Positions 19,481-42,132 of a DNA stretch of 64,000 nucleotides are shown here, in pieces. Position 1 is the first letter of the stretch, and each line of letters begins with the position of its first letter. Location: positions 26,239,611 to 26,303,610 of the forward strand of contig NC_092576.1 of assembly GCF_037975245.1 (NCBI RefSeq). Reading direction: 5' to 3'. A program made the translations under genes and the position numbers. The stretch is from Apostichopus japonicus. Its lineage: Eukaryota > Echinodermata > Holothuroidea > Aspidochirotida > Stichopodidae. The notes beneath the pieces are model-generated. The model was not told the origin of the DNA and ran no database searches. It saw nothing but the letters and a program-made list of their open reading frames with translations.

Positions 19481-22400
19481 AAGAAAATGCTGTTACAACA
19501 ATCTGGAAGAGACTACCAACTCGTCAGCCTCCCCAGTTCCAGCAAAGCGAGCACGAAAAGCATCGAGGCACCTTCAGAGCTACCTAGTGAAGGATGCTAC
19601 TGCTAGCAACGTGGCAACTCGCCAGTCTCCAAGGGTATGTTAACCATGGTTTTTTTGTATCATTCATAACTTAACTTTAACCAGGTAAGAAGGAAGTCCT
19701 TGATCTATCAAGCAACATTTCATGATCAGACAATCTTGCGAAAGAAACCGCTACTGGGCAACATCCATATTTTATGTTATTTGTATATCTTGTTAATGGA
19801 AGGCTCTTGAAGGGCAATGATTTACTTACAAGTGAACCATGGAGCATTGTATGGGCCTAATATCCTAAAATAATCTTTTCAAATTTATATCCTGTTGAAG
19901 AAGGCCAAACTTTACAGCATACACCGGTCTTTTCTATTCAATGAAGTACGCTTTTGCTTTGTTCATGTTTTCTTTTCCGTCTCCTTTAAGAAAGGAAAGA
20001 AGAAGGCCTCCTCTTCTATTAGCCTGGCCAGGAGGACCTTGGATGATTCTATTCATCTTAGGCCGCTAAGCGATAGCGAGGATCTGTTTGAAACTGTAGA
20101 TATTGAGTTTGACAATATCAGACTCAAACAAAAAGTACAGAAGCTAGAGGAGGAGATGAAAGCTCTGAAGGAACAGCTGGGTAAGTCAGGGTTGGCTGCA
20201 CAGGGTTACTAGGGTACCTGCCCAACCAATTGCCACACATATTGAACGTTGCTAGCTCCTTGTTCTAGCCTATTTGCTGATTTTTCATATTTTGTATTAG
20301 TTGATCCAATATCTGCAATGGCACTAAGCTAGGCTCTGGTGAACTACATTTGACAATTGATGAACATTGTCTTATGCTAAGAAGGCTGTAGTACATCACT
20401 ATAGTAAACCACCTTTGGTGTTTAAAAGAAAGAAAAAGAAGCTTGTTTTTATAACTTTTTAAAATACATGGAAAATGATATCCTAAGATATAATGCAAAT
20501 AGCCTGACCACCCTGATCGCTATGTATTTAACGTTTCTATAGACAGACAATTTATCATAATTAAGTTGATTTATTAATTTGGCATGGAATGACCCTTTCG
20601 ATACATGTATAAAAGTGCCCACATGTCTCAAATTTACCACGGTAAATTCACTTTGTTGTGGGGAAATGGTATTTCAGGTTACAAAATTTAAAAAAGCGTT
20701 ACACTTGCTCCATGTTCCTCACTCACACACTCTTTACTGACTCCAATGTGTTTAATCTTATTCTTGTGTTTTATCTTCATCAGACATACAACAAGACACT
20801 GTAAAGCAGTTGAAGAGGGTTGAGAAGAAGCTGACCTCTGTTTCTTCTCTGACACCAGCTCTCAGGAGGCACCAGTTGCTGGAGAAGAAGAGGTCAGCAG
20901 GATTGAGCAGACACAGTCCTTTCAACATCTGCGGAACAAGCCATCTGATGTCGGTGTAAGTTCATTGCTCACTGTACTGTTTTTAAATTTTTTTTTTCCA
21001 TTCTCTATTGCAAGGGTCCTCTCTTAATGTACTTAAGGCATAAAAAACTCAGTAAGGTTACCCTGCATTTGCATCATCATTATAAAATGAAAACTTGTAG
21101 CCAATAACAATATGGCAAACCAATTAGAGGATAGAGTTTTTAACTTAAAGAGGATAGGTAGTTGAGAGATACAATTTTACATGACTCTCTGTACAGATTC
21201 CTTACAAACCCATCTGTAAATATGCATCCTGCAAAGATTTCCATAATAAACATGCCTCAGCAGTTGCAATTTCCATCAGCAATTTCTTTCATTACAAGAA
21301 AAACATTTTATATTTTAATTTTTCTTTAGTTCACATTCCAGTCATAACTACATATCCACCTGAAAGTAGGATAGGTAATTTTGAGAAAGAAACTAAAATC
21401 ATAACTTTCTGTGCAGTATCCTTCCACCAAATCAGCTAAGTTTAGGACTCACATCCAAAAAGTCTATGAATTGCAGATATTATGCAAGTAGTGACAATCT
21501 AGAGGAATTTTGTTTCATTTTTGTATCTTTTATTTCTTTTTTTTTCCAATGCCCTTTAATATGAGAAGTCAAAATAGTATGTGGTGTTTGAAATGCTCAC
21601 AATGATCCTCTAGCAAACTTTCACCAAGAGGAATGATATGTATTTGCTGTCCCATGCTGTCTTTTGAAGTTTTGTTCCGGTCAGGATGTTTGCTGTTGAT
21701 TTCATTGAATTTTTAATTTTTGCCAATGTCTCTCTGTAGGTTGTGGAAATAATGAAGGGAAGTCATGTGTACCTCACAAAAATTGAGTTAATGGCTGCCA
21801 TGACTTCCAAAACTGACACTACCATGGCCAGAAATTCGATGTGCCGGGTTTTCCTCCAAAAGGCCATGTTGGCTTGTTCAGTTAAAGGAAAAAAATGAAA
21901 AGGAAAGGAGAAGACGGGCACCATCAAACCACCTCTGAATCCACGTGGTGTAAATGCCATTGTAAGTCAGTAACTCCCGACTCCTTTAAAGCCCCATTAT
22001 GTGTTTCAATATAATATGCGCCATGGTGGCGCATGTGCACAGAATGTATGTGTGTTCTTGCAATGCCAAGCTTGTGAACACAATATCTCAAAAGTTAAAG
22101 CCTTAACAGATCTCATAATGTAGAAGTACCAGATTTAGTTCATTTAGACATAACCGTTGTGTTTGGTATGTAGACGTGCCACATTGATAAGAATAATCAT
22201 ATTGTCGTTGCCTCGTGGTTCAAATCAAGTAATTCCAAAACAATAATATGTTAAGAAGTATAGCTTTGGGAGATAACAAGTTTAGTATGCCGAGATATAA
22301 CACTGAGTACAAGAGGACTTAAGTCCACTTCAATCATCAGCTGTTATTGCAAATATTGTTTGTCACATCTCACAGATTTTTGAATTAGATCAAGAATGTC

Positions 22401-22760
22401 GTCCTCCCTTGTTAATAGCCGAAATAATGTCACAATCATGGTTTGTTCTTTTTCAGTCAAGAAAACAAACTAACAAAAGTAAAGCAGTGAATTATATCAT
22501 GGCCTGTGTATGCATGTACAAGTGTGATACACAATAACTCACGAAATTTAACTTTTGTTATGCCACTTTGTGATAATGCAGCTTTGATATTTCAACGTGT
22601 TTTCATTTCTCCAGCTTGTGTACTGAACCAATTTTTTGAAGAGTTTCTTTTGAGGCAGTAAGCTCATAATGATGTCTTAATTTTTTCTTTTATCAGACAT
22701 TGCAGAGACTGAAGAGTCAGCAGAATGATGGGCAATTTGAAAGACCCAGGATTTCAAGTG
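19481..22760 (+). pseudogene. BEN-domain gene of EnSpm-1
   Basis: Exons follow acceptor/donor signals at about 19481-19634 (basic, PVPAKRARKASRH), 19991-20179 (acidic stretch, then a leucine-rich coiled coil), 20784-20955, 21739-21960 and from 22697. The 21.7-kb exon reads VVEIMKGSHVYLTKIELM...CRVFLQKAML...KPPLNPRGVNAI, the layout of a C-terminal BEN domain (VxIxxG start, L+xxxF centre, LxPxxVxAI end). A coiled coil before a BEN domain is usual for this family, whose members bind DNA as dimers. An in-frame TGA in the BEN exon and a likely frame slip in the 20.8-kb exon suggest decay or sequence error. It lies on the strand opposite the EnSpm-1 transposase, with its 3' end toward the right terminus, as in EnSpm-2. 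Confidence 0.6.
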
Positions 22761-23599
22761 ACCTTTTTTTTTTCCATCTTTTTAAACCTACCATCTACTT
22801 TTGCTTGAATTTCTTATTTCATCCTACTTTTTACTTGGCACCTTTTTTAACAAATATAACTTTCTCCGGAATGCCTTCAAAAGTTTTCCTTTCATTCTTT
22901 ATTTTGGATCCTTCTTTTATCGTACTTGTTCACTAAGGTATACTTGCAGCCTGCTATAGTGAAATTCAAGTAAAGTTTATAATGATTGTTTTCTGTATTT
23001 TGCCAAGTTTTCTCAGGTTTTTCATAGTTTATTTTATAGTAGTAAGGTCATTCCAAATTTCAACTCCGTCCACCAATTGTTTTTTAATTATTCTTCTGTG
23101 TGTGTTTTTATCAGTGTGTGATCTTCACAATTTTGCAATATTACATACATACATCTTCCTCAAATATAGTCTTTTTCATAACCTTTTTTTCTTAAATATT
23201 TAAAGTCACATTTTTTACATAGATTTATTCTTCTCTCTTTGCCAATAGTACTGTTATTCAAAACTCGCCTTTGTTTCTTATTATATTTAAGCTGCCACAT
23301 GAAACAGGTGCTTGCCTTAATAAACATTTCAACAGAACATCCTTTTTTAGTATTAGTATTTTATTTCTTTAGGCTTTAACATACTGTCGGTACAATGAAA
23401 CAAGATTTTTTTTTATATCTGCTGATAGATCAAACAGGAAGTGGCCAGATAATTAAGCAGTATATAAAGAGTTGCTTTATCTGTGCCATATATTGCCTTT
23501 AGTTGGTTTCAAATTATATTTCTTTACATCGCCAGATTAAGATCTGGCAAAGATGTAGCCATTTTTATTAACTTGTTCAATCTTAAACATAATATGGGA
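22761..23599. other. T-rich spacer before the right end of EnSpm-1
   Basis: Strongly pyrimidine-rich plus strand with low-complexity open frames (FFF/LFL-type); I see no gene. Confidence 0.5.
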
Positions 23600-24025
23600 C
23601 AGTAATGGATTTGCCAAAGGCAATATATGGATGTGACATATATGAGCCAGATATGGAATTGCCATACATGGCCCAGATGTGGATTTCTTATTAATGGGCC
23701 AGATATGGATGTGCCAGATATGGATCTGCCATATATGAGCCAAATATGGATTTCTCAGATATGGATTTGCCATATTTGGGCCAGATATGGATTTGTCATA
23801 TATGGGCCAGATATGGATTTGACATATGTTAGCCATATATGGATTTGCCATATATGGATCTGCTATATATGGGCCAGATATGGATTTGCCATATATGGGC
23901 CAGATATGGATGTATATCAACTTATATCTGCCCAATTCTTTATATGGCCAGATATAAATTCCATATATGGCACAGATATGGGCCAGATACAAATTGCCAT
24001 ATCTGGGCCATATCTGGATTTTGAG
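23600..24025. repeat. Subterminal array of EnSpm-1, right side, with CCATATATGG palindromes
   Basis: Dense repeats of GCCAGATATGG and GCCATATATGG in irregular order; long frames on both strands are by-products. Perfect CC(A/T)6GG sequences occur at 23770, 23833, 23848, 23889 and 23961. The motif vocabulary matches the left array (395-930). Confidence 0.8.
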
Positions 24026-24031
24026 TAAGGG

Positions 24032-24506
24032 AGTGTTGCTCTTATCCAATGTAACACCCAAAAGTGGTGACTGATGATTTATCAAATGATATGTCTCAGT
24101 ACTATGGATTAGTGCGGTGTAAGATACTGCCCCCAGAAATTTATTTCACCCAGTACTCCCAGTCAAAATACATAAGAAACTCCCCTTTGAGTTGTGTTTG
24201 AAGTAAATGTCAAACCCCTTGTACACATTCTGATTCAGAAAGAGCACTCACCTGTACATGGCTAACACTTGAAGCTCAGAAAGCGGTTGCAAAAGGCTAC
24301 AAAATTTTCAACGTCCAAGTTGTATGGCATTTCGAAAAAAAGGGGGGAAGTATGATAAAGAAAAGAAAAGGGGGGGGTGGGCTTATTCACTTACTATATC
24401 AACACGTTCTTGAAAGTCAAACAGGAAGCCTCGGGGTGGCCTTCATGGTGTTTCACTGCAGACGATCGAAGCAATTACATTGCAGACTGCAGCAAACGAG
24501 GGCAAG
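24032..24506 (+). mobile_element. Fossil protein-primed family B DNA polymerase (right part)
   Basis: Immediately after the right end of EnSpm-1 the plus strand again resembles protein-primed family B polymerase, in the section that follows the SLYP motif in this family, including a GLVRCKILPPR-like block. The stretch ends near 24506, where a U2-headed repeat abuts it. With the part at 1-348 this marks one old, broken Polinton-like copy interrupted by EnSpm-1. Confidence 0.6.
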
Positions 24507-24681
24507 AAAGATTAACTATAATCCTGGGCTCGTATCCAAACCCTCGCGCATGCGTGTTACTCATAGACACGCGTTACTCATCGATCGCCGTAATGTGGGC
24601 CCGGGTGTACGTGGGCAATATGTTCGCTGTACAAAGCACATGATCTTAGCCAAAAAGGCCGAGAAGCGATATATGATGGTG
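24507..24681 (-). mobile_element. Short element with U2 snRNA 5' head
   Basis: On the minus strand from about 24677, ATCGCTTCTCGGCC followed by TTTTTGGCTAAGATCATGTG matches the first 35 or so bases of U2 snRNA, with one extra T in the T run. After that the sequence leaves U2 completely and continues as CG-rich unknown sequence to about 24507. It is not a U2 gene (no branch-recognition or Sm region). It may be a U2-headed SINE or a U2 5' fragment joined to other DNA; no target duplication is evident. Confidence 0.55.
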
Positions 24682-24792
24682 ATATATGATGAACTAATAA
24701 TGAAAGAAATAATGTAGAATTATATATTAAAAAACAATTATTACAGGGCTTCCCATTTTATATTCGGGCGGGTGGGTCCTTCAATTGGTGCA

Positions 24793-25056
24793 TACCCAGC
24801 AAACACATAAACGTTTTCAAAACGTTATTCAAACGTTTCGTCTTTTGTTTTGATAACTTTATTTGTGGTGTAATAAATATGTCACGAAAACGTTTTGAGG
24901 CTATAATTTCAAAACATTTTTTCGTTAAAACAGTAATATAACATTAATATCCCATAAAAACGTTATGCCGACGTTTTTCTAACACCACATTTAACGTTAT
25001 AAAAACATATTTTAGAGGCTCTTTTCAAAATGATGACGTTTTGTGTTTGCTGGGTA
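24793..25056. mobile_element. 260-bp MITE with AACGTT-rich interior, TA duplication
   Basis: Termini CCCAGCAAACACA (24795) and TGTGTTTGCTGGG (to 25054) are inverse, flanked by TA on both sides. The interior is built from many AAACGTTTT-like words (AACGTT is itself a palindrome). It is non-coding. The TA duplication points to a Tc1/mariner-like or similar mobiliser, which is inference. Confidence 0.75.
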
Positions 25057-25059
25057 CAT

Positions 25060-26590
25060 TGTCGCCTTGTTATATTTCCGACATAAGGTTCTGGAATATT
25101 GATTGTCATTAAACCTATTATAATCTGTTGCAACCCAATAAGATTAAAATCTTTACGCGATTGTAACAAATCGAGGATGAAGTCGGTGATGTTAGAACCG
25201 ACTACTGAATTACCCTCATAGATTAACTCCCCTTTTAAAGTCCAGTCGATAGTGCTTTACGTGACCCGCCATGCGGGATACAAAACGTCACGGCCAAACG
25301 GCACTACCAAACCATCCCATTCTTACAAACGAAACTACAATTTACAAAAGTACCAATAGCCTAACTTATTCCTATACCATTTCAGACATGTTTGCTTAAT
25401 CTTAGTAGGCTTAATCTAGTAGTAGCCTGTAGGAGTAGGCATGTTATTGGGTTAATTTGTAAAGGTCGGCCATTAGCCTCCTGTGTGCTGTAGGAGTTGA
25501 GGGCAGTTCTAGCCAGGTTTGGGGTATGGACTAGGAATAGGACACAGGCCTACATAGCCTGAGAGGGATTCAAATCTTGAAATTGTCATAGCCTTGCCTA
25601 TCTTAAGTTAGATGCAGACCAAGTATTAGTACTACGCTGGTGCTTGCTGTTTACATTTTATATAGGCTAGTCCAAACTCATAAAGTTTTATATTTTACTT
25701 TGTTATAATCTTAGTTCTTTACTCTTTAGTTATTTAGTTATTGTTGTAGATAAGCTTGTAATTATCCATTGTCATGCCTAAGGAGAGTGCATGCTAAACT
25801 CTGCATCGTAGTAAAACAAGTGGGCCATGGCATATTGGTCAGGCACTTCCACACCATGTTCAGTTGGTCATCAACTTCATATCAGAAGAAATATTCCAAA
25901 CCCCAGGAAATGAACTACCCTCTCAGAGAGCACACAAAAGGTCCCATGGAAGAGGATGTACTGTCGTTGGAAGTTTTAGTCGGCCGACAAAATTCATGAA
26001 ACTAATTTACTTTCATTTTCCGAAGAAGCTCTAACATCCATTGGTTTTGTAGCGAATTCGCATTCGGCTCTTACAACCCCCTGTTTTTCGGCAGAATCGT
26101 AGCTACAACGTTTCTCCGGAAGCAAGATACAAACGTTTCTTTCGTTTAATCGTCACGACAACTTGGAAGAATCGTAGAAGCAACGTTTTCCTCGTTTAGT
26201 TTAGTTGTTCCTTATGTTTCACTACACTCGCCGCCTCGCTACGTTGGTACGATTCGCTCAGCTTGGCCGTAAATTTCACTGTTTCGCTTTTTCATTCGGA
26301 TTACTCTTATCCATGGTTTTATTTTTTTCTATGGAGATTTATCTATACGGAACTTTTATATACCATTTAGTTTTTTCTACGGAGATTTCGGGACTGGTTT
26401 TATTAACGGATATTTTTTATTAACGGATACTCCAGTTTTAATAACCGTTTCAACCTATGCCAGCTAATTAACTTACTTGGGTGAGTTAAAATTTACTCAT
26501 TTTTACTTGCCCTAAAGTTTAACTGCATTAATCATTGTTTAGTTTGTGTCATAAACATTATTGTAACATAAACAACAGACAAAATTATTC
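25060..26590. other. Upstream region of the CXC gene, mostly non-coding
   Basis: Apart from the inverted-pair segment (25252-25336), this holds AT-rich sequence with repeated CGTTT words at 26.1-26.2 kb. The minus strand at 25060-25235 has a weak coding look (an ITDFILDLLQSRK-type stretch) that resembles fragments seen in virus-like elements; family not established. Confidence 0.35.
25252..25336 (+). repeat. Dispersed segment, left member of an inverted pair
   Basis: GTGCTTTACGTGAC...ACAAAACGTCACGGCCAA... to ...GAAACTA recurs inverted at 56802-56877 with few differences; this copy has an extra internal CCGCCATGCGGGAT block. ACGTGAC and GTCACG make the unit partly self-complementary. Confidence 0.7.
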
Positions 26591-26591
26591 A

Positions 26592-29500
26592 CTGTGCCAT
26601 TCAAATCAACAGAACCTTTTTCTTTACCAAACTATCGATGCTGCAAGAAAATATGGTAGTGAAATTCTTCAACAAGAACAAGTGAGATATTTGAACTTGT
26701 ATAGATTCAGTAAGGAACAGTTCTTAAATAATGTTCAACGCAGTTCTTTGCAATATTTGTCACCACATCCAAAAGTATTGAAAGGGCTACAGATAAATTT
26801 GTCTCCATCTCTCTTTTTGCAGAAGATATCAACAAGAACATTTCTTCCACAGCTAAGAAAATAATATCTGAAGATAAGTGTACATCTTTTTCTTAAGACA
26901 CATTTGATTTTGTAAGAGAGATTGAAAGAGTTGAGCTTCTTTTATGGAACTTTGTTGTTGCTTGTACATTGAGTGCCACTGAAGATAGGCAGATGTTCTT
27001 TTCTGGTAGTTTTGATTGGAGTGTGCATTATATAGGTGATACACATATTTGTACTCAGGTAAGCCGTTAAAAATTTCTAAAGAGGTACTTTTTAACATTT
27101 AGCTTTGTCTGACATTGTTGACAGGTTCAATGGTTCCTCCATATCCTGCTTGAACTTTTGTCAAAAATTGGAGTAACAGTGTCCAAGAGTACATATCTTC
27201 GTTTCCAAACATCTGTCACTAAGAGAAGAATGATTTCAAAACCTCTAACATTAGCGAAAAGTTTCACAATTGCCTCTGTAGATAATATTGACAGGAGTAC
27301 AACATATGCCTCAATCAGAGGTGGCCAAGACAGTAGAGGCTTCCATGGTACCTCTGTTCAAGCTGTTGAGTCATTACCCATTTCATTGATGTCTGGAGAT
27401 TCTTCTAGGGATTTGCCATCGACAAGTAGAGGGATTGGTAGGGTTGACACACGGCAAAATGTAACGTCAGAGGAAGTAACCACCTATCACTGTTTCTAAC
27501 CCACTGTGCTCAATAGATGTATTGAGCACCCCTTGTCCGCCTAACATTTTTAAGCAAGCTCTTAATATTGGATACTTTGCCCTAACAGATGCAGAGAATT
27601 GTGCATTAGATGCTTTTGAAAAGAATTTTTTTCTTTATGTTTGTGAAGCAAGTTTGTCATAGCAGTCAGCCAGGTATAGTACTGCCTGCAATCAAAACAG
27701 CATTCCCTAATTCATCATCATGTGTGGAACAATCCAATGTTGACTTTACATCCATTTTAGCACAGTCAGCAGATAATCAGGATACATTATTATCTGTCCT
27801 TGATCTTCTCCATGAAAAGCGGTAAGTTAGTTGACCATTTGGTGGTAGTTGGGGATGCTAAAACCTATGCAATTCTCCATAACCTTAAGAGGTTGTAATG
27901 TGATGAGTTAGAATGGATGATTCCATATCTTGGAGAATGGCATCCACCTATCATTTCAAGCTGTGAGCAGTGCTCGTGGCTTCCAAAAGAGCCACTATTT
28001 CCCCATGCAGTCATGGGAAGCATGCTACAGACACCTTATATCATGTTATGAAGCATTTATTATTTCAAATGTGACTGAAGTAAATTCTTTTACAGCTGTT
28101 AAGCAGGATGTGGAAACTATTCTGAAGAAGCATGGAATTAATTTTTTTCACCAGGCTTGGACTGGGCAACTTAAATCATTATTTGTTTCTTCACAGTGCA
28201 CCAAAATGTTAACTTCAGATTTTGATATGGTTTATTTCACGTGACATGTTGTTCTTTGCTGGTTTGTACATGGCCATTAGAAGCTGCTTGTATAAGATCC
28301 TTTGCACCTTTGTTTCATGCCTTGGACAGACCTAACTACTTGAAACTTCTGCCTTTGCATATTGCCACGGTAAAAGTATGTCCACAGGGTATATTTGAAA
28401 AGCTCCAGCAAGGTGCTTTTGCTGTAAGCATTACTGGACGTAAAACACAGTGTGTTGCTCTCGATGAAGCCCAAGAAATGCTTATCAATTGATAAGGAAG
28501 TGAAGATGGCAATGAACGCCAATGACATGGAGGGTCTTTCTAGATTAGTGCACTATTTGCCATATCGTTGGAAAATAACAAAGAATAAATCATCACAAGT
28601 GAAGGGTTGAGATGATCCTGAAGTGGAAATCCTTCATGTTGCCTTTTTCAGGAAAGTTGAAACAAATATCAGGTCTTACCTCTCTAAATCAACTCTTTTC
28701 TTTTCCAGTGAATGCCAATTGTTAAAACACATTTTCATTGGCAAAGTTGCCAGTGAGGGTATTCAGTATGACTTAATTCATTTCTGTTCATTGGGAGAAG
28801 CTGATTTCCAAGCTTTTGTTAAGTGTTTTCTTCTTGGTGACATGACGGTTAGGCAGACTCGTCATAAGAGAAATTTGCAAACCTTCACAGAACAAAAAAC
28901 TATCACAACAGAAGAAGAAACAAATTTTTCTCAGTTCTTGCCGCTGCCACACGCAATTTGCGATGTCAACGGATTTCCAAAGAATGGGAATAAAGCAGTA
29001 TCTACCACTTTTTTACAGTCCAGGTACCCACAAGCTTTTCTTGAATAAGCCAGTCATATTCAGTTTAATAGTGATATGTGTGTGATATTAGAAGGTTTGT
29101 TTATGATTATTGAAACAAGGCCACTTGATGGGCACAAAACATTTGGAGATTATGCTTCTTTCTTATACAGGCAATGCGTTAACACATACGTTAGAATTTT
29201 CAGTGCTCTTGAGATTCATATTATTTTTGACCATCCTGGTAGACATGGCAATATGCCGAAAGACATCGAGAGGGGAAGACGGGACAAGCTTTGTTCAAAA
29301 AACTGTGATGATGCCACAGTGTACATAGAAATCACGTCTGCTACTCCTCAACCAAGCAATTGGTCTAAGTTCATTGGCAACCGTCATTCTTATCTAACCA
29401 AATGTTATTTCTTGCAAGAACGGAACAGTATTGCCCAAATGTACTTGTCACTGCTGGGGGGTTTTGATGGTTGTAAAGTAGATAAAGCCAAGCAGTTTTC

Positions 29501-30560
29501 AGATGGTTCCATTAATGAGAACCCTGCCTTAGGTTCTAATCACGAAGAAGGAGACTCGAGAGTCTGGTTTCATGCAGCCAAAAAAAATTCTCATGTGCAG
29601 TCCAGACAGGGACACTTTCAACATCGGACTACCGTTCATCCAAACCTACTTTCATGACAAGCAGTTAATAACACAGTATACTAATGATTTGTTTCTATTC
29701 ATGAACAGACTAGTTGATTGTCTGTGCAATGACTTTGATTTGCAGGTTTTAGGTGAGAAAGTTTCATTGGTTTCTTCCTTAATGCAAATGTTGTTCATAT
29801 GTTGTGATAATGTCTCTTTCTTTAAGGGCCACACAAAGCATTCACACTGGTTTATAACATCAGGCTGATTCAATACATGATGAAGGCTTGTATTCATTTG
29901 ATCGATTTGTATGGTCTGTGTACTTTGTGGAACATGCTGGCGCTTTCTTGCAGGAAAGTCCGGAGGAATTGTTTCGTAGTCTTCAGTCACCACAAATGAG
30001 TAAAAATTGGACCACCATAAAGCTTTTATCTCTAAAATTCGTTCACCTCACTTCCACAGGATTTCAGATGAATCTCAATGGATGCCATCATCAGATGCAT
30101 TAGACTTTCACTGGCAAAGATGTTGTTGGACATTCAAATTATGGTCACAAGTATGTAGTGGCCAGATAGTCATGCCAGATCCTTGTTGTTATGGTTGGCA
30201 AATTTACAAGGTGCACTTATGCCTATTTGGGATACTCCGGAGAATTTAGCTAGTATTAATAAAATTACTAAATTTATCAAGAAGGGCTTCAAATGTGAAA
30301 CGGGTTGTAATTCTAAGAGGTGTATGAATCAGAAGCATGACACACTCTGTGGCCCTTCATGTATGTGCTTAAACTGTGTAAACACAGGCCAGGAAGCACT
30401 TGTGTCACTTGAAATTGATAGTTCATCAGAAGGTTCTGCTAAAAGTTCTAAGAGTGGGTCAGATGTACAGGACTTGGAATCTGATGGTGAAAATCGGTCT
30501 GATGCTGATGGTACGGCATGTGAAGGGTTCAATAGTATCACGTCTGCAGCTATTCAGTGT
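26592..30560 (+). pseudogene. Tesmin/TSO1-like CXC-domain protein of the invertebrate PIN-like type
   Basis: Successive plus-strand blocks share one protein family. An N-terminal block lies at 26592-27059 (ending at a GTAAGC donor). A block at 27123-27497 contains SFTIASVDNIDRS and HGTSVQAVESLP. Around 27830-27960 is a VVGDAKTYAILHNLKR...LGEWHP region. At 28623-29050 is a segment with RNLQTFTEQK. At 29076-29657 is a nuclease-like region with IIFDHPGRHGNMPKDIERGRRDKL-type residues and NHEEGDSRVWFHA. A CXC zinc domain is at about 30290-30400 (FKCETGCNSKRC, LCGPSCMCLNC). Members are common and multicopy in marine invertebrate genomes, and an acidic nuclease fold followed by the CXC motif suggests a DNA-acting role. 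The blocks shift frame several times without clear introns, so the copy looks broken. The mobility mechanism of the family is not known to me. Confidence 0.6.
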
Positions 30561-30799
30561 GAAGCAGAGAACCTTTTAGACCAGGCCCATCTAAACAGAT
30601 CTCTGCGCAGAGCACTGACTGGAGCAGAATTCTCTTCTGACATGATTCCTGCAAAGACTATGACGAAGAAGCGCCTGATACAAAAGCGCTTTGCCGAGGA
30701 CTTGACCTACCGTGTACAGGCAGAGGTGACTGCTTGCAGGAAAGTGCTCAAATATGTCCACTGCAAAGCTGCAAAAGCTTTGTCAACATGTCTGGACTG
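30561..30799 (+). pseudogene. C-terminal part of a Mutator-like-transposase-type gene, left of EnSpm-2
   Basis: In the same frame as the CXC block but of different character: SSDMIPAKTMTKKRLIQKRF, then YRVQAEVTACRKVLKYVH and a cysteine pair (STCLDC). This matches, from memory, the C-terminal region of animal proteins annotated as Mutator-like transposase domain. EnSpm-2 interrupts it at 30800, and coding resumes at 42794 if one TG copy is removed. The N-terminal domain of the family is absent upstream, so the gene is truncated or fused to the CXC gene tail. Confidence 0.5.
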
Positions 30800-30835
30800 C
30801 CCTTACAGAAAAGCTAGCTTGCATGATGATTGCAG

Positions 30836-31105
30836 CTGGTTGCGCACGCTTACATACGCTTGCCTAAGTTTGCGTCATGCTAGCAAGTGATTGCGCAAGG
30901 GCAGAAGTCAATTAATGCTTAGCTTACGCAAACATGCGCAAACTAGTTTAAAACCGCGAAAAGTTTTCTTAAACTTCTGCAAGCATGCAGAAGATCGCAA
31001 AGAGTTTTCTTCAACTCCTGCAAGCTTGTAGAAGATTGCGCAAACCTGTGGAATATAATGCAAGCTTGCGCAAGTACATACAGTTAAACAGGATTGCAAG
31101 CTTGC
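30836..31105. repeat. Subterminal array of EnSpm-2, left side
   Basis: Words of the type AAGCTTGCGCAA and TGCAGAAGAT recur. The perfect palindrome TTGCGCAA is at 30891, 31036 and 31066. Confidence 0.8.
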
Positions 31106-31706
31106 ACAATAATGTCTTTGAGCACATGTAAGAAATTACCATATTGACTTCTAAAATACATTAAACAAAGCCAAAGGGCTTTCTCAAAGAAGATACATGC
31201 TTAATTCTGAAGACTCTGTGTGCAAAAGATTAGAAAGACAAAAACTAAAGCATGAAAGAGAACCAACAAGATAAGATGTGTGTTATAGCAAGTATAATTC
31301 ACTCTAAAATGCAAAATACAAAAAGTAGACACTTTTCCGTAAACTGCATTCGCTACACTTAAAAAATGTTGAACACTTGCTTATTTACATACTGAATATT
31401 TTCCTCTTTGTCAGTCCTTTTTCCAAAGTGTTTGGAGGTACTGCAATAAATACCTCACGATTTGATTGATCAGTATCTATTAATACACAAAGATGCAACA
31501 GGGATCACGTCAAGAGAGGCTGCATCACCTGCAAGTAAAGCTTTGAGTAAGACACAGAAAGGAATTTCCCAAAGGAATCGAGTAATATATAATGCTGTAT
31601 TTGACCAAAGGCCTGTTTATCCCCTGACATATAGCACACCGTTAATGAACTTCTTTTTTGACATTTGAAAACTTCTTGAGTGGTAAATTATTTTACTGGG
31701 CATAAC

Positions 31707-32116
31707 TCATTTATATACCAAGTGACTATTACCATCCAATTGTGGAGAGCATCTTTTCAGGAGGATGATGATATCCCTATCCAGACACATAATAGTTGGA
31801 GTGCCAAGGACATAAACACCTGGAGAAAGTAACTTCTTCTTCTGAGGTGAAATCCTCTTATTTGACACACGATAATAAAATTCGATAATAGGTGCGCTGA
31901 TGTTGCTTACGCAGGATGGAAACTTGAGCATTGCTCCAATACTATTAGCAATCTGAAGTTCTGGTCGCTGAGTACCATGAAAAAAAGTGGAGCAGTTCTC
32001 CAATGATTCCCTCAAAATGAAAACAACTAGATACCCAAAGTGGTCCTAGGGTCTCTGACACTGTCAGCTAAGTGGAGAAGGAGGTGTAAATTAGCACTCA
32101 TATCCTTTTCATAATA
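31707..32116 (-). pseudogene. EnSpm-2 transposase, C-terminal part
   Basis: A minus-strand frame (ending near 31707) with CSTFFHGTQRPELQIANSIG and IEFYYRVSNKRISPQKKKLL resembles the C-terminal tail of animal EnSpm transposases. The tail's position near the left end matches EnSpm-1. The central DYMHC-type body is missing; a BEL/Pao fossil lies where it should be. Confidence 0.5.
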
Positions 32117-33603
32117 CAGTGTTGCAAACATACATACAAATTGCCTCAACATTTGCTCAGAGGGAGGTACAGTCAATCAACAATGCTCTAAAGTGTTGTC
32201 TCAAAGAACGAGTAGTACCGGAGGCAGTCCTTCAAACAGTGTTGGTGGAAGTTGAAGGTCTGATAAACTCAAAACCATTGGGCTATGCGTCGTCAGATAT
32301 TGCAGATACAGATCCAATAACACCAAACATGTTGTTGATGGGGCGGCGAGACCCTATGTCTCCCCCTGCTGTGATCAATCCAAAGGAGGAAATCAGAAGT
32401 AGGAAACAGTGGAAGCACTGTCAGGTCATAGTTGATATTTTTTGGAGGAAATTTGTCACCGAATACCTGCCAGCCCTGCAGGTTAGATCAAAGTGGGTGA
32501 CGGACACACCAAACTTGGAAGGGCAGAATAAGGTATTGGTAATAGACAACCAGGTCCCAAGAGGTGAATGGCTAATTGGGGAAGTGGTAGAGTCAGGATG
32601 GAAAAGTTAGGGTTGCTGACGTTTCTGTCAATAATAAGATATAGCGGCCAGTGGCAAAGCGGCCAGTGGCAAAGCTCATAAAACTACAGAAGTTTGTTGA
32701 TTGAGACATCTCAGTATGATGTTCTGTTTTTTCCTTATTCTTATTTACTTAGTAATGAGTTTCCCTCATTAAAGGGGGGAGTGTAAGATTAGAGCCATCT
32801 TCTTAATTTGCGAAGTGCGCCACCACTTCACATGGCAACGCTGACTTATCAGACTTGTTGTTCGTTCGCCCAAGTAAAGCGAAAAGCCGTTTAGTTTCGC
32901 TCTGTTCTGCTAACCTGTATGTATTTTAACTGAAACATCTGATGAACGTAAGTTTATAGATCATTTTGGACCATTTGTTGTAGTAAGATGTTGTATAAGT
33001 GTCGAGTATTATTGAAATTAGTTTGATTACGTGTGCCTGGTTATTTTGTGCAAGTCGCCATTTTGTTATCATGTGTTTACTTATCAGGCCTAGAGTCTCG
33101 CGTATTTGGTCCATGTAGTTTGCAGTGTTAATTTTGCGCCAAGAACGTATGTTAAGGTATTCGACGAATCAAGAGTTGTTTAGATCAGTGTAAATTGTAA
33201 TTCCAGATCCATGTAAGTAATGTTACGGCCCAAGTGAGAGATTGTTTACTTATGCTGCGTAGATTGCCTGTATTCTTTATATCCAACATCCAGTGCTTCA
33301 TGAATGATTCGTACTGACTGCTTACCTGGCTAAACTGGCTAACCTGTAAATGGGGACAGCAGTCGCCGGCAAAGTGGTAAGTGTCTCCAACATTCTGAGA
33401 ACGCTTCGAATAAACGATTACATGACATATAGACTGACACTTGAGTATTACGTATAATTATCTTACCAGTTACTTATTATATTTTATTATTTCATGTTTT
33501 ACCATAGATTCGAATGAGACTACCAGAGAATAGATTCATACGAACTTTATAGCTGCTGCTGTCCTACTGTACTTATTTCTGTGTCGTCTGACCCTTTCTT
33601 ACA
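32117..33603 (+). mobile_element. BEL/Pao LTR retrotransposon fossil, 5' truncated
   Basis: The plus-strand coding at 32119-32610 matches the C-terminal part of BEL/Pao integrase, with a LINSKPL block and a MLLMGR-like block. A purine-rich tract (AAAGGGGGGAG) follows and then the 3' LTR. No 5' LTR, gag, protease or reverse transcriptase is seen, so only the 3' end survives. The flanks on both sides are EnSpm-2 transposase sequence, so it inserted into that gene. It is broken and incomplete. Confidence 0.75.
32782..33603 (+). repeat. 3' LTR of the BEL/Pao fossil, 822 bp
   Basis: It starts TGTAAGA right after the polypurine tract and ends TCTTACA, a perfect 7-bp terminal inversion with TG...CA boundaries. 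Confidence 0.75.
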
Positions 33604-35765
33604 CTCTCCATTATCAAACTCTGAAAGCTTTGAGCCACAAACTTTACAGTCAGAAGGAATTTCACCCTTTAATAAAATATTGCATCCACCACAAAATTTG
33701 TGAAAAATGATAGGTGACTTTAAAAAGATGAACTAATGTCTTACAAAGGTTTGGCATGCAACAGTGTAGAGATATTAACACTAAAAGGTCCTGGAGACAT
33801 TCTCCAGACAATTGGTACCTCATGGTAAATGTTAATATTAAAAATAAACTCTCTGCTACACTAACTGGTGCTCCTGAGTAGAGAGGTTCATTTTCTGAAG
33901 TAACCTCAGTATCAGTAAGGTTATCCTCAAAGTCAAACCATTCTGTGTCATCACCGCATGGTTCTGCAGAATCCAAGCTATTGTCGCAACTATCCTGTTC
34001 CAACTCTAGTTCTGTTTCATCAGCAGGCAGTAGCAAGTCTTCTGGAGTTTGGTTTTTCCATGCCTCTGGAATATTCTCAACTACTGAATAGCTGTTATAA
34101 AAGAAAAAGCAAAAACAATATTAAGGAAAAGTTCAACAATCTGAATTCACAACAGATCCTAAAATTACTTCTAATGAAAGATTTTTATAGGAGATATTAT
34201 GATCAATGTGGAATTATGCTAAATACTTCACAACAGTATGTTTTACAGACAATTGTCAGACATCAAGAGAAAGCTAGAATTGAATTGCAGGACTATCAAC
34301 CTAATCAAGTGACTAACAGATTTGCTCAGGAGCTTTAAGGATTGTCAATTTCTGTAAGTGCAAGGTACAGTACACAATATGACAGTCACACAGAGGAACA
34401 GTGAAGAATAACCCAATTGTGATGAGCATCTAAGCCTTCTAAGGATTCATTTGCAATGGCAGTTCGAGAAGAAAGAAAAGAAACAAGTAAGATCAACTAA
34501 GTTTGAACAGTAATATTTATTAAGTAATATCAGAACACACTGCATATTTTCTTACTGATAATTTGTCGCCTTGGCCCTATACAGTGTAAAAAACCTAGGA
34601 TCGAAAGCCCCACGTTGGCCCACAATGTCAACAACTTTAACCTAGTAGTAGTAACACTGACTGACAGTTGTTACTCCATTCATTCGGCCTAGGCTATAGT
34701 TCAGCCTAGGCTAGACTACAGGTAGTTCCTATTAATCATCATGCAGGAGTCGATTCACTGGTTTGTGGTTGGTCTTGTAACTATACTGCAATACTGTAGG
34801 AATTTCTGAACAGAATTTAGACTTTTTCAAATACAGTAGCCCCGAAGTGATGTAAACGAGTGCGCCGTCACAAACCTACCTTACCGTTAGTACTATACTA
34901 ATAGTACTAGGCCTATATGCTGGTATTCTTAGGCTACATGCTGATACTGTAGGCTAGGTAGAGTAGGGTTTTTTCAAGTTGCATGCGATATTTATCACAA
35001 AATTGGTTTTATAAAATGGATATAATCAACTTTTAATCATACCAAAGTTATTGATCTGCTTCATTGTACCCATGCAAGAAGGGAAAAAAACTCAGGCGTA
35101 TTCCTAACTTGTACTTCCTTCGAACCATTCACGAATCTCACACACTAAATAAACCACAAAACTTCAATCAATGAAAAATAGATAGCCTACTCAGCTACTG
35201 GGAAACACGGTGAATACTCCTCATATTGAAGTTGTGTTTTCTTTTGCTTTGCTAGTGTCGTTTTTAAAAATGACAATAATATTTAAAAAGTAGAAAACGC
35301 AGTTTGCAGAGTCAATTCGTTCTCTGACATCATAGTAAGCTACTTTGTTAGCTGACGTCTTAGAAACACGTGACTAGCTTAATATTTTAGAGAAGTTACG
35401 TTAGGTAGTAGGGAATAAAAGAAACATGGAAGAAAATAAGTTACAGTAGTAGAAGGCAGTTTCAAAACTGGATGTGACTTACCAAGAAACTGTTACATTT
35501 TCGTTAACTTCTGTTTGCGAGCCGTCGAGTCCCCGACTTTCAAACCACGTTTCTTCAGAACATTCGCCATCTTTTTGGCATTCACTGTCGTCGTAAGAAT
35601 TAGTTTTAAGCCTCCAAGAAGTTGTGCGAGGTACTTCAAGATATGGATCTTCGGAGCGCAGATAATCCGAAGCTGTTTTTCTTTTTCTTTTCTGTCCGAC
35701 ATTTGCTTTTCTTGTTTATTAAGACACAACTTAGAAATAAATCCCCTTCGAGTCTCAGAATAAAG
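33604..35765 (-). pseudogene. EnSpm-2 transposase, N-terminal exons
   Basis: A first exon at about 35700-35486 encodes a basic start followed by TASDYLRSEDPYLEVPRT and ends at a GTAAG donor. A second exon (34095 down to 33604) encodes an acidic block (DNSLDSAEPCGDDTEWFDFE), ENEPLYSGAPVSVAESLFLI, a hydrophobic LQDLLVLISLHC block and cysteines (FCGGC, CKVCGSKL). This is the usual order at the N-terminus of animal EnSpm transposases, where a zinc-binding segment follows the acidic region. The gene stops at the BEL/Pao LTR. Its start faces the BEN gene. Confidence 0.65.
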
Positions 35766-36314
35766 GTTTACTCTTTCGGAAGTCAATGCTACATTTGAGA
35801 AACTCACGCTACACTACTGATAAACCCGGCGACCCCGCTCTCATCATAGTACATAGGAGATGCGAGAGTGTGTTTATTACGTCATCATTAAGACCCGGCA
35901 AAGTTTGAAAATACGCAATGCGGAAAAGGAAGGCCAATACGGAACTGATTTTCAGTTTGTCCATGGATTTAGCTTAATAATTTTGTCCTTTTAAAAAAAA
36001 AAAAAAAAGTTGTTCAGTATGAGGAAAGAAACTCCAGAGAAAACGACATTCGGTGTTTTATTTTGCTATTAATAAATGGTACCGCCTCAGATATGCGTGA
36101 TCGTTAAAACCACAAACACTGTTTCTATGCCTGTAATACAAAGCCATCTATTGTCTTAACCGCCAAATTTTTAATCCATGAGCAGAGTTACTTGGTATTC
36201 AGTGCTGGCTATCGTAATATTCAACAAACTGACTACAGTCATATACGCTCACACAAAATAATTACTTTTCAGATGTATCTATTTGTTACGATTACCAGAG
36301 CAAAATTGTGAACC
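35766..36314. promoter_or_regulatory. Divergent promoter region between EnSpm-2 transposase and BEN gene
   Basis: About 0.5 kb separates two outward-facing first exons. It contains a CRE-like TTACGTCATCA around 35877 and an A-run near 35995-36008. Joint control of transposase and BEN protein from this space is a reasonable inference. Confidence 0.45.
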
Positions 36315-39300
36315 ATGTCTGGAACAAAGTGTCTCTTATTTTGGACGGAGGATCAAACGATGAGCATCGAAAATATAACCGCCATCGCCAATATTTCGAA
36401 AAGAACAGTCGGGGCCTGCACAATTGCTAAATGGGCAGGAAAAAAAAAACTACAACGCCAAAGTACTGATGATTAGCGGTAAGTTTTTTCATAAACGATT
36501 TACACACCTCAATTTTACAAAATGAAAAAAATACTAGCTCTATCCTCGCAATTCTTTAACTTAGTTTTAAGTTAAGGCAAAAAAAACAACTTCACTTCGT
36601 TCATAGTAAGGCGTAAATGCGCAAGATATTTGACTTCAACTGATATTGACTTACCCTTTAGGCCTAACAGTAACAGTTGTTGTACACTAAACAAAGCAAA
36701 CGTCATAGTTAGGTCACATGGGCACATTTTCGACTAGATTTCTTACAAAAACTTTCAATTGTTCTGAGTTGGGGAGGGAGGTACATAATCCAGTGCTAAT
36801 CCATATTATTATGCCCCTAAAAGCAGAAGGGGGGGGGGCATTTATGAAAAATTTGTGATCAAGAGACAAGAATAAATATGTAAACTAAGAATAATTAGGC
36901 GTTTGAATGTGATAGTTATGTCTTATTCATAACTTGATAGGGGAATGCCAGATGTTCATCATATTCATTGTACGTTGATGCAGTACGATAGTTGGTGTTT
37001 ATATCATGAATATTAATGAGGTCACAGGGTCAAACCTGAAAATCTGCTCTTAAAATGTTGTTCAGTCTACAACCTCAAGTCCGATTGAAATAAAACTTGG
37101 TATAATTAATGTTGTGAGGTGATAAGAGCCTACATGTACAGTATGTGTTGATGCATGTTAAATTTGAAACATTTTTATATTGATAAGGGGTGTGGCTTCA
37201 TATAATTTGCTACATTTAGCTTCTAAGGTTAGCCATAACTCGATAAGGGAATGCCGAATGTTCCATTGTTAATGATAGTCACAATGTACGTAGACATGTA
37301 TTATAGCGAGCACTGAGCAGTTGTTGGTTATAACGTTATTATTAATGAGGTCATAGGGTCAAGCCTGAAAATCTGCAATTAAATACTACTCTACAACCAA
37401 AAGTTTGATTGTACTGAAACTTGGTATGATGTAATAAGGTAATAACAGGTATGTGTAGATGTATGTTAAAATTGATATATTTGCATATTAATGAGGGGGT
37501 GTGGCTACATATAATATGGCAACATTTAGCTTAGCCTTTGGTAATGGGTTATCAAATGTTCATGATCGTCACTACCTGAAGATGCTCTATACTGAGTGAA
37601 GAAACCCATTTGCTGGTTATATCATCTATATTAATAATGTGATAGGGTCAAAACTTCAGGCATTCGTCAGAACTTTGTTTCTTAAGAATTAATATGAAAT
37701 CCATCATTCATCAAATTCAGCAAGGAACCATTCAATTCATTGCAATGATTACATTTGTTTTGTTTTTAAATTCGCAGTGTCTTCACTGTTACATGAAGGC
37801 AAAGCAACTCTATAAAAGTATCTTTCAACAAATTCTGTTAGCAAGCCAAAATTTTGTTGTAGAATTCATTTTAGACAAAAAGACAAAACTAGTAGCTTCA
37901 TAGCTTTAAAAGTGAAAATTGTAAAAATCTCACATTGTTAGCACAAGACATAATACGACTCAATTGTAACTTTTATGGTGTACAGTAAAAAGTTCTTAAA
38001 TAGGCGAAATTATGGAATGTGAAAACAGTTGTTCTCTCCCAAATTGTTTAATTGTACAACTACTAAGATAATTAATGTTTGGAACTTTTGATATGTTTTG
38101 TTGACAGAAAACCTTGCTGAACTACGCCAAAAACAGAGGGCAATTAGCAAAGGACTAAGGGAAAGTCAGTTGTCACCTGTTGATCAACTGACTGAGGAAA
38201 CTCCTCAGTGCCCGGTTCAAAAGAAGGATGGACGAAAGGTAGCCTCAAAGGCAAACCTAAATGTAGCCCTTGAAGCTCAGAGGCAGACTTTTGCTTCCAG
38301 TTCAAAGGATTGCACTCAATGTGGGCAGAAGACGGAAGAGAGCCGGGAACTGAAAGAGCAGTTGGATGAAGTCAAAGTAGAGCTCCTTCTAATGTAGGAT
38401 GAAAGGGATGAGCAGTCTGTTAGATTTAAGGACATGATGGACATGCATCAGAAGGAGGTACATGACCTTAATGTGAAACATGAAAAAGAACTTGCCGCAG
38501 CAAAAAGGACATACTTAGAGAGGGGTGCAATTTAGATGCATCACCCAGCAGCTCAATATTTTCTGGAGGTAAGTAAGCTTGGCTTTAGTTACTTTCTATT
38601 CTTTACAACTCTGCCAGAGGAACTTGAATTCGGAAGGCGCCCGAACATCTAGACTTTGCAAATGATGAAAATTAAGTTTGTTGGTCACAACTTACGGATT
38701 TGTTGGATTGAGTTTTTACTATCAAGCCCAAGGTTGTGTTTGATTGTAAAAACTTTTAAGAAGATCAAATTGTCCTAAGGAACAGTTGATTTAGACCACA
38801 ATCACAATAATGTATTTCTTTCATATTTTTTGGACTATTTTTGCAAAGTATGATCAAATTATAAAATTTGACCAAAACAATGCGTAACATCAATCAGTTT
38901 GCTTTGGTTGATTTTGACCTTGGTGCAGGCATATAGCCATTCTATCCGCAAAAAGATCAACTGTGTTTTCGTTGTTCAGTTTTAAGTCTTTTGAACTAGA
39001 TTGCACTTTGCAAAATGGTAATAAATTATTTAATAGAAGTACATCAGTGCAAGGCTGTGATTGTAGGATGCTTATCAGGACTGGAAAAAAGGATTTGGTT
39101 TATGAAAACTTAGTATAAGAAAATTTGTTATTGAACTAGTTCAGGTGTGACAAATGTTTATCTTCTATGAAAGAGGACAATAAAAGAAACCCAATAGTGA
39201 AAAAAAAGTATTCAAATATCTTGTTCCGTTTAGGAGATATTCAAGTTTAAAGTTCTTTCTGATTGTGTAGAAACTGCTGAAATCAGACTAGCTGTAACGT

Positions 39301-42087
39301 CATATCCTCACATTCCTGATAAGTCTTTGTTATTTTATTTCAAATATTTTGTAAGATTTGACTTACAACCAAAAGATACGTCAGGAGATCTCATATGTGT
39401 CAAGGGAAGTATTTGAGATTTAACATCTGAAGAATGTTTGATTACATTTTATAAGATTTGTGAAAAAAAATTAAATTATTTTTTAATGAAATATATTGAC
39501 ACATGTTAAGGAAATTAGGATGTGACATCACACCCTCACAGTTAGTCTTTCTACATCAGTCATTTCCAAAGAAATTTTGAAATCTTCGAAGAGTGATATC
39601 TCCTTAACAGAGAATGCTATCTCTTTTTAAGCTCTTTCATACAAGATAGACATGTCAGACACCTGAACCAATCCTTTAAAGGTAGTCTTGTGGTGGGATC
39701 CATAAATGATTATCTTTTATTCTTACTCTGCCATTTTCCTTTCGCTGACACTTAATGTCAATATCACTTGGTTCTGGCTATTGAATAATCTACAAGTTTC
39801 ACTACCTTTACAATATGGTAAATTTTTATCTATTTCTCCACTGTAGAATTGACACCAAAGAAAGTAAAGTTGTTGGGAGACATTGCTTCGATGGCTCAGA
39901 AGAGCTTCAATTCTTCATCTCCAGTCCAGAAGGAGGCGAGTCTGGAGTCATGCAGTCCTGTTGAAAGAACATTAGAAGTAGATGTCTCCCCACAGCGTGC
40001 AACCACATCAACCACCACATCATCTACTCCAAGTTCATCTCGTGGACTCTTTGCAGGAGTGAAGCTCGGAGATAAACCAGTGAGTGCTCTTTTTTATGTG
40101 CTGAATTCGCTGCCTTCTTTCACTTTCACATTTTTTCATAGGGACACTGTGATGTTATTGCAGTTGGTTCTTTCCAAAGCCTTTGGATGGTGTTCTATTC
40201 AATTTATGAAATTTGGGTTCATCTGTTCATTATGCAATACAGAAAGCATTTGATTGTAAAAATACATTGCTGACAAGATCCAGACATCAAAACGATCAAT
40301 GTGTTCTTTTTGTTAACATATGTGGTTTTGTTTTGGTTTTGAACTTGATCATACTTTGTAGAGCAGTCATCACTTTGAAATACTGTGATTATAGCTACAT
40401 GTGTATCAGCACAAAAGAAGATTGGGTTTTGCTGTCGGTTTTCCTGGAAGTCAAATGTCATTTTGAGGTCAAACTTGGCAAACCATGTAAACTCTACAAA
40501 ACGAATGTTAATTAAAGTTTGTTTATGGTATTAGATGATTGGTTGTCATGCAGTTGAGCCAAGGTCTTTTGATGTCACAGTCAGAAAATCTTTAAAAATA
40601 TGCAACCATGAGAGGTTAAGAAGGTGAGTGAACATTAAACTTGGTCTGTATATTGTTACTTGGACTTAAAGACTTGTTTGTAGCGGGTCTCTCTTGTAAT
40701 TAGTTTAGCTCGGAGGTTTAACTTCAGAACCAATGATATACTGCAAGAGGAACTGATCTTTTGAACCAAGTTCAGTATATTTTTATATTTCAACCACATA
40801 GATTGCATGTACTCAAATAATACTTTCTTTGACTCCTCAGAAAATGATTTTTCTTTCGGGGATGTCATTCTTCAAATTGTTCGAAGGACATGAGAATTGC
40901 TACTTTCATTGTAAGGAAATGAGCTGCAGGACTTTGACCATGACAATGACAGATGGCGCAATACAGAAAACATACAAGCACCACTTAAACTTGTGTTCTT
41001 TCTGGTTGAAATCAAATATCAGGTTATGTCTTTCCATTGCATGTCTTTGACTTTGTCTTTTTTTTTTCCAGCCTCTGGTTGAACTTTCCAAAGGAAGTGG
41101 AATTACAGTAACAGCAATGCAGCTGTCGTTTATTCATCGGGTTTCTCGCCAGAAACCAGAATTAATGCTGAGGAAACTCCTACAGGCAGTGTTCACACCT
41201 CAGGAATTGCCAAATGGATGTGCCATGGGTGCCAGACTTGCAGCAAACAAAAAGAGTGAGGGCACTTCCACACCACTGGACAGTGAGAAGCTTTCAGCAA
41301 TGAAGGGTTAGAACTTTGATGTATTATTGGTCAAAAAAATGTTCACTGATTTCCTTTAGTGTATTCAAAGAAACTACATGGGAGGGGAGCATGGGACTTA
41401 AAACCCACACAGTAAACTCGATGGTGGCTTTAAAATTAGGGACTGCCTTTTTTTGGAGGGTTAGGGTGCTGGTTGTTTCCACAAATTTAAGGTTCTAATC
41501 ATTCCAATTGTGAGGTTAGGAGTTAGAGGGGTGGAGAGAGACATATAAGGCCTTATGAACAAGGGGCATAAATAAATAGGACCTTGAACCACATACAATA
41601 TGCATGTAGTTTACTTTTAATGGAAATAGATCATTTTACCCATTTCCTCAATTAGTTTACAAGATTTATTTGTGGCTTAAAGATATTGGTGTATGTGATT
41701 TTGGGGAGGGCTTTCAGGTTAGAGGTTCTCTTCTGAAGGTCAAGGAATTTAGATTGCCATGTTTTACCATTTTTTCCATTTCATTTGTCTATTTAATTCC
41801 ACACCTTTTAAGCACAAGTTCTTACACCATTTTTTTTTTGGATAACTATGAGGGACTTGTTCAGTAAGTCGTTTCTGTTATTTGAAGATGTTATGTTTAG
41901 TGTTTCTCTTAACGGACTAAAAAATTATACATTATTTTTCTTTCTTCGTCTCTTTGCAGATTACATTTTGAAGAAATTCAAACAAACAAATGGGAAACCT
42001 GCCCTTATAGAAAAGGACATGAATGCAATAATTAACGGCAAATGTGCAACAGTTAGAAGGGGGTTGAACTCCAAAAAGGCTAATTAG
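36315..42087 (+). CDS. BEN-domain gene of EnSpm-2
   Basis: Exon 1 (36315-36478) starts MSGTKCLLFWTEDQTMSIEN and carries a W-x-GKK motif seen at the start of BEN-type proteins; its frame is kept only if the A10 run at 36440-36449 is read as A9 (then YNAKVLMISG before a GTAAG donor). Exon 2 (38108-38568) is a charged coiled coil with an in-frame TAG at 38395-38397 and a frame change near its end. Exon 3 (39847-40079) is Ser/Thr-rich and low in structure. Exon 4 (41072-41307) and exon 5 (41960-42087, ending TAG) form the BEN domain: PLVELSKGSGITVTAMQLSF, LLQAVFTPQELPNG and AMKG, then DYILKKFKQ. AATAAA is at about 42294. BEN domains bind DNA. The gene is divergent from the EnSpm-2 transposase and ends just before the right subterminal array. 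Its defects may be decay or base-count errors. Confidence 0.72.
36885..37660. repeat. About 306-bp tandem repeat, 2.5 copies, in the first BEN intron
   Basis: CATAACTTGATAGGGGAATGCC at 36928 recurs as CATAACTCGATAAGGGAATG at 37234, and a third partial unit begins near 37536. Each unit also contains ATTAATGAGGTCA(C/T)AGGGTCAA and AAACTTGGTAT. The units are clearly diverged. Confidence 0.75.
38569..39846. other. Second intron of the EnSpm-2 BEN gene
   Basis: AT-rich sequence with no recognisable coding or repeat structure. Confidence 0.45.
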
Positions 42088-42132
42088 TTCATGTTTCTTT
42101 GTTTTTTTTTCTTCTTTTGAGCTTGTCTTGAG

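Follow-up and report, generated by a model that had tools for sequence, protein, structure and literature searches.

A 64-kb stretch of contig NC_092576.1 of Apostichopus japonicus, hereafter the window, carries two transposons of EnSpm/CACTA-like type, EnSpm-1 and EnSpm-2, and each has, on the strand opposite its transposase and towards its right end, a gene with a BEN domain that is full in EnSpm-2 and partial in EnSpm-1. The BEN domain, its position in the element and the repeats private to the ends of each element are direct observations. The interpretation preferred here, to which we attach a probability of slightly under one half (about 0.47), is a joint one, that the elements represent two divergent animal EnSpm/CACTA-like families, each by a decayed copy, and that the BEN protein may serve its own element as an end-binding factor analogous to TNPA of maize En/Spm. 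The products are called BEN1 (EnSpm-1) and BEN2 (EnSpm-2). The analysis covered the window itself, libraries of protein families, solved structures and open-access papers.

A sequence-only reading of the same DNA had placed CCCTTAC at all four element ends, and it is indeed at 349, 24031, 30800 and 42793, with the matched inverted ends extending, by reading, to 12 bp in EnSpm-1 and 14 bp in EnSpm-2. The heptamer alone is not rarer than chance (seven in the window with 4.56 expected, and 18 of 100 shuffles reaching seven), and so support for the ends comes from the longer matches and from the private repeats. Family-specific subterminal repeats are present at both ends of both elements: the ends of EnSpm-2 have 41 10-mers in common and those of EnSpm-1 have 21, whereas none of about 2,000 random pairs exceeded 14, and no 10-mer is common to any of the four cross-element end pairs. 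EnSpm-2 has TG on each flank, a 1-in-16 chance event, and sits in a reading frame beginning at 30159; when its flanks are joined with one TG removed, the frame runs on without a stop for 34 residues beyond the joint and has cysteines on either side of it. This is moderate evidence for a clean insertion that duplicated 2 bp, 34 open codons not being rare. Elements of the EnSpm/CACTA type are expected to have duplications of 2-5 bp. No target-site duplication is seen for EnSpm-1 (flanks GTA on the left and AGT on the right), and so it may be rearranged. The termini, CCCTTAC..GTAAGGG, are not the 5′-CA..TG-3′ found in most cases in the EnSpm/CACTA (CMC) clade (PMC12730594), and for that reason the elements are named EnSpm-like and not filed as members.

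That transposase-type coding is on the minus strand at the left of both elements, as had been claimed, is borne out by the open reading frames (ORFs) and by similarity to a third transposase of EnSpm type elsewhere in the window. Transposase 1 matches this third one with E 4.9e-8 (z 15.5, with none of 1000 shuffles as high), and the piece of transposase 2 at 32030-32176 does so with z 5.0, again with no shuffle in 1000 as high. Similarity between the N-terminal pieces of transposases 2 and 1 is weak, their scores being reached by 6 and 7 of 1000 shuffles in a comparison of 74 piece pairs; at least two of the 11 best pairs, whose scores no more than 20 of 1000 shuffles reached, are non-colinear and chance-like, and so the weakest pairs are not to be leaned on. 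The scanned pieces of transposases 1 and 2 gave no Pfam match above cut-off, and the middle of the EnSpm-2 transposase, whose gene is interrupted by a retroelement remnant, was not found. On the third transposase the match to DUF4218, which we take to be a domain of plant CACTA transposases, has E 0.048 and is below cut-off. Family assignment leans on YMHC and HGTQ, presumably motifs of animal EnSpm transposases. To the eye, the CWHC of the third transposase and the HLLLH of transposase 2 appear to agree with the clade motifs C(2)C and H(3-4)H (PMC12730594); transposase 1 has a stop where the second Cys of C(2)C would be. The plan proposed as common to both elements holds for the transposase-type coding, minus and left, and for a BEN gene on the plus strand near the right end, with the qualification that the BEN match of EnSpm-1 is partial.

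Exons 4 and 5 of the EnSpm-2 BEN gene, once joined, match Pfam BEN (PF10523, cut-off 23.2 bits) with E 8.8e-7 and 29.5 bits over positions 2-76 of the 76 in the profile, and match NACC1 structures (8yzs, E 4.2e-8 over 112 residues; 7bv9, E 6.5e-8). The upstream exons contain a stretch that by eye looks like coiled coil, with a stop and frameshifts. A BEN fold is expected to have two N-terminal strands and five helices; a single-sequence model of exon 4 only (78 amino acids; mean predicted local distance difference test score 61.4) has strands at 2-4 and 12-14 and three helices, and a fold search with it returned NACC1 BEN chains as the four best PDB matches, with E values of 1.8-3.1 that are too weak to count. 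When the alignment with NACC1 is read against the published residue numbers (PMC11472053), Arg occupies the positions of NACC1 R400, R421, R468 and R469 in BEN2, with Lys in place of R401. NACC1 binding is nearly abolished by R469A and reduced to less than 5% by R468A or R429A (PMC11472053), and two of these three critical arginines, R468 and R469, are kept. The gene takes up the interval between the transposase start, from which it is 0.6 kb distant, and the right-end repeats, which follow it after 0.2 kb. The claim that the BEN gene is part of the transposon is well supported for EnSpm-2 and fairly so for EnSpm-1: place, strand and plan are the same in both, and no other BEN match in the window rises above noise.

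Repeats at the ends are largely private to their element. All seven window copies of TTGCGCAA, 10 of the 12 of CAAGCTTG and all four of GCAAGCTTGC are in EnSpm-2 ends, within which CAAGCTTG and TTGCGCAA frequently overlap; 16 of the 20 copies of GCCAGATA are in those of EnSpm-1. The ends of EnSpm-2 are the most palindrome-dense places in the window, as the windows that are equally rich (4 of 1261 for one end, 2 of 1249 for the other) overlap the opposite end. With dinucleotide-preserving shuffles, 500 per end, as the control alongside the other windows of the stretch, the number of 8-bp palindromes was reached by one shuffle in 500 at each EnSpm-2 end, and that of 10-bp palindromes at its left end by none. 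CATG, the NACC1 core, has 13 of its 361 window copies in EnSpm-2 ends, about 2.7 times the average density; as a target for BEN2 it was set aside, the ends consisting of related words anyway.

In the mechanism envisaged, each family would have two divergent genes, the transposase being read towards the left end and the BEN protein towards the right end. The BEN protein, with its coiled-coil-like stretch, would bind the repeated, in part palindromic, subterminal sites of the element that encodes it, by its α5 helix and as an oligomer; binding, oligomeric state and role are all inferred. End-bound BEN protein would help the transposase by drawing the two ends together, and might also regulate the element, a role that could be likened to that of TNPA in maize En/Spm. 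End binding is favored because the end palindromes are private, because BEN domains bind palindromes, with NACC1 selecting ACATGT (PMC7764960), and because TNPA recognizes subterminal repeats, both TNPA and TNPD being required for transposition (PMC2613891).

Several observations weigh against this, the first group concerning BEN2 and the end repeats. BEN2 has Gly and Ala at the positions of the base contacts D462 and T465, Ser at R429, the third of the critical arginines, and Thr, Ala and Asn at N466, S423 and R472, where contacts also differ; with several NACC1 contacts lost, the target of BEN2 is not readable from NACC1. The sequence-only reading had likened the BEN protein to TNPA as an end-binder, a view that is strengthened by the private palindromes of both EnSpm-2 ends and by the several arginines kept, and weakened by the loss of the other contacts. 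Ten-bp palindromes are not in excess at the right end of EnSpm-2 (96 of 500 shuffles reach the count), nor are palindromes at the EnSpm-1 ends, where the counts are reached by 415 and 179 of 500 shuffles for 8 bp and by 136 and 90 for 10 bp; 433 of 1250 and 15 of 1254 windows elsewhere equal these ends in richness. It could also be the transposase that makes use of the end repeats. To be set with these are the shortcomings of the EnSpm-1 BEN exon. Its match to Pfam BEN, with the stop entered as X, is below cut-off (E 8e-4, 20 bits, profile positions 2-46 of 76); BLASTP against BEN2 gives E 0.009 on only 17 residues; a PDB search returned no BEN match, the sole match being to a ribosomal protein at E 4.3; and the recognition helix α5 was not found downstream. 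Both BEN copies carry stops or frameshifts, and with only two elements, both broken, neither is established as functional. No BEN ORF accompanies the third transposase in the window, nor were the borders of its element found there.

A protein that belongs to the transposons could instead act on chromatin or transcription, as an anti-silencing factor or a repressor of the element, with no part in end assembly. In humans, the majority of BEN proteins have roles connected with chromatin (PMC11472053), and an anti-silencing role has been proposed both for the TET/JBP proteins borne by fungal EnSpm and other elements (PMC12730594) and for the VANC proteins of VANDAL elements (PMC10398659). For palindromes restricted to the ends an end-binding protein is the simpler explanation, although a factor that controls silencing might bind there too, and we regard a chromatin role as unlikely while taking it seriously.

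More unlikely is that the BEN gene is a passenger, a host gene of NACC1/BEND type or a fragment of one, captured perhaps repeatedly and without a role in transposition. The closeness of BEN2 to a host-type BEN domain and the presence of introns would be natural for such a gene, and the third transposase, for which the window has no BEN partner, fits as well. Against capture of a passenger, two divergent elements carry BEN at the same place and on the same strand, and the BEN frame of EnSpm-2 is still open despite the other exons being broken. That the two BEN genes are not close copies of each other, as had been stated, is confirmed by the 22% identity between their domains; the further claim, that a single recent capture is an unlikely source of the pairing, agrees with this value but rests on two elements.

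The proposal that both elements have a BEN domain stands in full for EnSpm-2; for EnSpm-1 it stands in part. It would be quite improbable, in our estimate, that the EnSpm-1 exon is a chance match and that a BEN gene is present in EnSpm-2 alone, a possibility that overlaps the other readings. The low score and the missing α5 and PDB matches described above speak for chance. However, when a profile of BEN2 and NACC1 was run against the 1583 window ORFs of at least 25 residues (shorter exons would escape), the ORF at 21740-21895 took third place (E 0.0032) behind the two BEN2 exons, which rank first by construction, and nothing else had E below 1.5. The two domains are also colinear from the domain start through a PL motif, and the exon has splice-like sites. 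No shuffle in 2000 equaled its score against BEN2, and one in 2000 did so against NACC1, on a 17-residue stretch. Further 5′ in the same gene, 19982-20182 has no Pfam domain above cut-off.

Very improbable is that the BEN gene is part of another mobile element or of a host locus nested in the EnSpm copies: EnSpm-1 is itself a nest of elements without a target-site duplication and has an inverted pair, 16486-16499 / 22490-22503 (14 nt, 93%), that encloses its BEN exons, yet this pair is short, AT-rich and unmatched in its flanks (TGTAA on the left, CTGTG on the right), and no pair with arms of at least 13 nt, a criterion that elements with shorter inverted ends or with none would escape, encloses the EnSpm-2 gene, which fills the space from transposase start to right-end repeats. 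Being AT-rich and without flanking duplication, the EnSpm-1 pair is probably chance.

Table 1. Features of the two elements and of the third transposase (window positions; strand given where it applies)
Feature	Position	Strand	Basis or remarks
EnSpm-1, whole element with nested insertions	349-24031		Inverted ends CCCTTACTCAAA on both sides
EnSpm-1 left subterminal repeats	349-920		Period about 65 bp; GCCAGATA ×7
EnSpm-1 transposase, decayed (N-terminal acidic, Cys-rich, YMHC region, HGTQ motif and C-terminal parts)	1050-3366	-	ORFs; similarity to third transposase
Nested Kolobok-like element in EnSpm-1, outside the BEN pairing	3384-13308		19-nt perfect inverted repeat; outer TTAA on each side
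hAT-like miniature inverted-repeat transposable element in EnSpm-1	14712-15165		Near-identical 8-bp flanks TCTCTTGG / TCTATTGG
EnSpm-1 BEN gene, upstream exons, decayed; coiled-coil-looking stretch by eye	19982-20956	+	ORFs; splice-like sites
EnSpm-1 BEN exon, one in-frame stop	21740-21961	+	Pfam BEN; splice-like sites
EnSpm-1 right subterminal repeats	23590-24031		GCCAGATA ×9, CCAGATATGG ×9, CCATATATGG ×4
EnSpm-2, whole element	30800-42793		14-bp inverted ends CCCTTACAGAAAAG; TG on both flanks
EnSpm-2 left subterminal palindromes	30800-31130		CAAGCTTG ×3, TTGCGCAA ×3
EnSpm-2 transposase, C-terminal part (HLLLH, HGTQ), frameshifted	31710-32176	-	ORFs; similarity to third transposase
BEL/Pao remnant and long-terminal-repeat-like stretch inside EnSpm-2 transposase gene	32177-33605 (left border approximate)	+	DUF5641
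EnSpm-2 transposase, N-terminal exons	33608-35715	-	Similar to EnSpm-1 N-terminal pieces; start exon 35482-35715 by reading
EnSpm-2 BEN gene, five proposed exons (36315-36477, 38108-38567, about 39847-40079, 41072-41306, 41960-42087)	36315-42087	+	Splice-like sites, translation; frameshift and stop in exons 1-2
EnSpm-2 BEN domain, exons 4 and 5	41072-42087	+	Open, full length once joined in frame
EnSpm-2 right subterminal palindromes	42250-42793		CAAGCTTG ×7, TTGCGCAA ×4
Third EnSpm-type transposase	45285-46998	+	CWHC; weak DUF4218 match

The TTAA-flanked element within EnSpm-1, 9.9 kb in length and which we take to be Kolobok-like, has exons of a P2RX7_C gene within 4831-5574 on the plus strand (Pfam E 9.5e-7 and E 1e-13). 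As a third gene of EnSpm-1 this was rejected because of its location inside the nested element; the Kolobok-like element with its P2RX7_C gene may be a further case of an animal transposon that encodes a second protein. The remnant interrupting the EnSpm-2 transposase gene, presumably BEL/Pao, is marked by DUF5641, with E 5.6e-14 on residues 104-166 of the ORF at 32095-32607.

Elsewhere in the window, the left flank of EnSpm-1 (1-348) has an open frame reminiscent of a type B DNA polymerase motif, and the ORF at 116-418 has no Pfam match. Two short stretches, 24640-24670 and 44160-44184, presumably resemble the 5′ part of U2 snRNA; Rfam at its gathering threshold gave no match anywhere in the window. 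Dense repeats at 52979-54663, with a period of about 20 bp and inverted copies, are like both ends of another short element. An ORF with a YqaJ recombinase domain (58939-59709, plus strand, E 5.8e-17) adjoins ORFs with THAP, HTH_Tnp_4 and DDE_Tnp_4 on the minus strand at 60482-62010.

Searches with BEN2 of the viral_contigs and genome_contigs collections, searches with the BEN2/BEN1 alignment as query, and searches of viral_contigs with single pieces of transposases 1, 2 and 3 confirmed no relative, the collections being viral and prokaryotic and uninformative on animals. The open-access literature, with Repbase, preprints and subscription papers outside the scope, yielded, as judged mostly from titles, no account of a BEN protein encoded by an EnSpm transposon, and no co-occurrence of the BEN domain with EnSpm, Repbase or transposon-derived; in PMC5704228 the BEN domain appears once, in the reference list. 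The end-binding second protein of CACTA elements has been described from plants, and an animal BEN equivalent, if that is what these genes encode, would supply a solved DNA-binding fold, make recognition of transposon ends directly testable, and raise the question of a transposon connection for the BEN regulators of animals. A rather unlikely extension is that an entire lineage of animal EnSpm transposons uses a BEN protein as end-binding second subunit, with protein and palindromic end repeats co-diverging by family; certain BEN regulators of the host, NACC1 and BEND proteins among them, might then descend from such transposons or have been donated to them. Were that so, the recognition of palindromes by host BEN regulators would be explained by transposon-end binding.

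We know of no BEN domain in TNPA. As in maize En/Spm, there is a transposase plus a second element-encoded product, and the subterminal repeats vary by family (PMC2613891); CACTA second proteins share little similarity, in contrast to the conserved transposases (PMC2613891). Unlike maize En/Spm, where tnpA and tnpD arise by alternative splicing (PMC2613891), the second gene here is on the opposite strand, the ends are CCCTTAC instead of CACTA, and end binding by the BEN protein is putative. Human NACC1 (8yzs, 7bv9) resembles BEN2 across the domain, including the arginines at R400, R421, R468 and R469, but is a host regulator with a BTB domain (PMC7764960), and differs at D462, T465, R429 and other contacts. 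Harbinger elements of the Nuwa lineage are likewise DNA transposons with a transposase and a separate DNA-binding protein, there of Myb/SANT type (PMC12730594), though both the transposase superfamily and the DNA-binding domain are others. Fungal EnSpm elements with a TET/JBP dioxygenase also combine an EnSpm-type element with a chromatin-related extra gene (PMC12730594); the contrast is that their extra gene encodes an enzyme and not a DNA-binder of BEN type, and that the host is a fungus.

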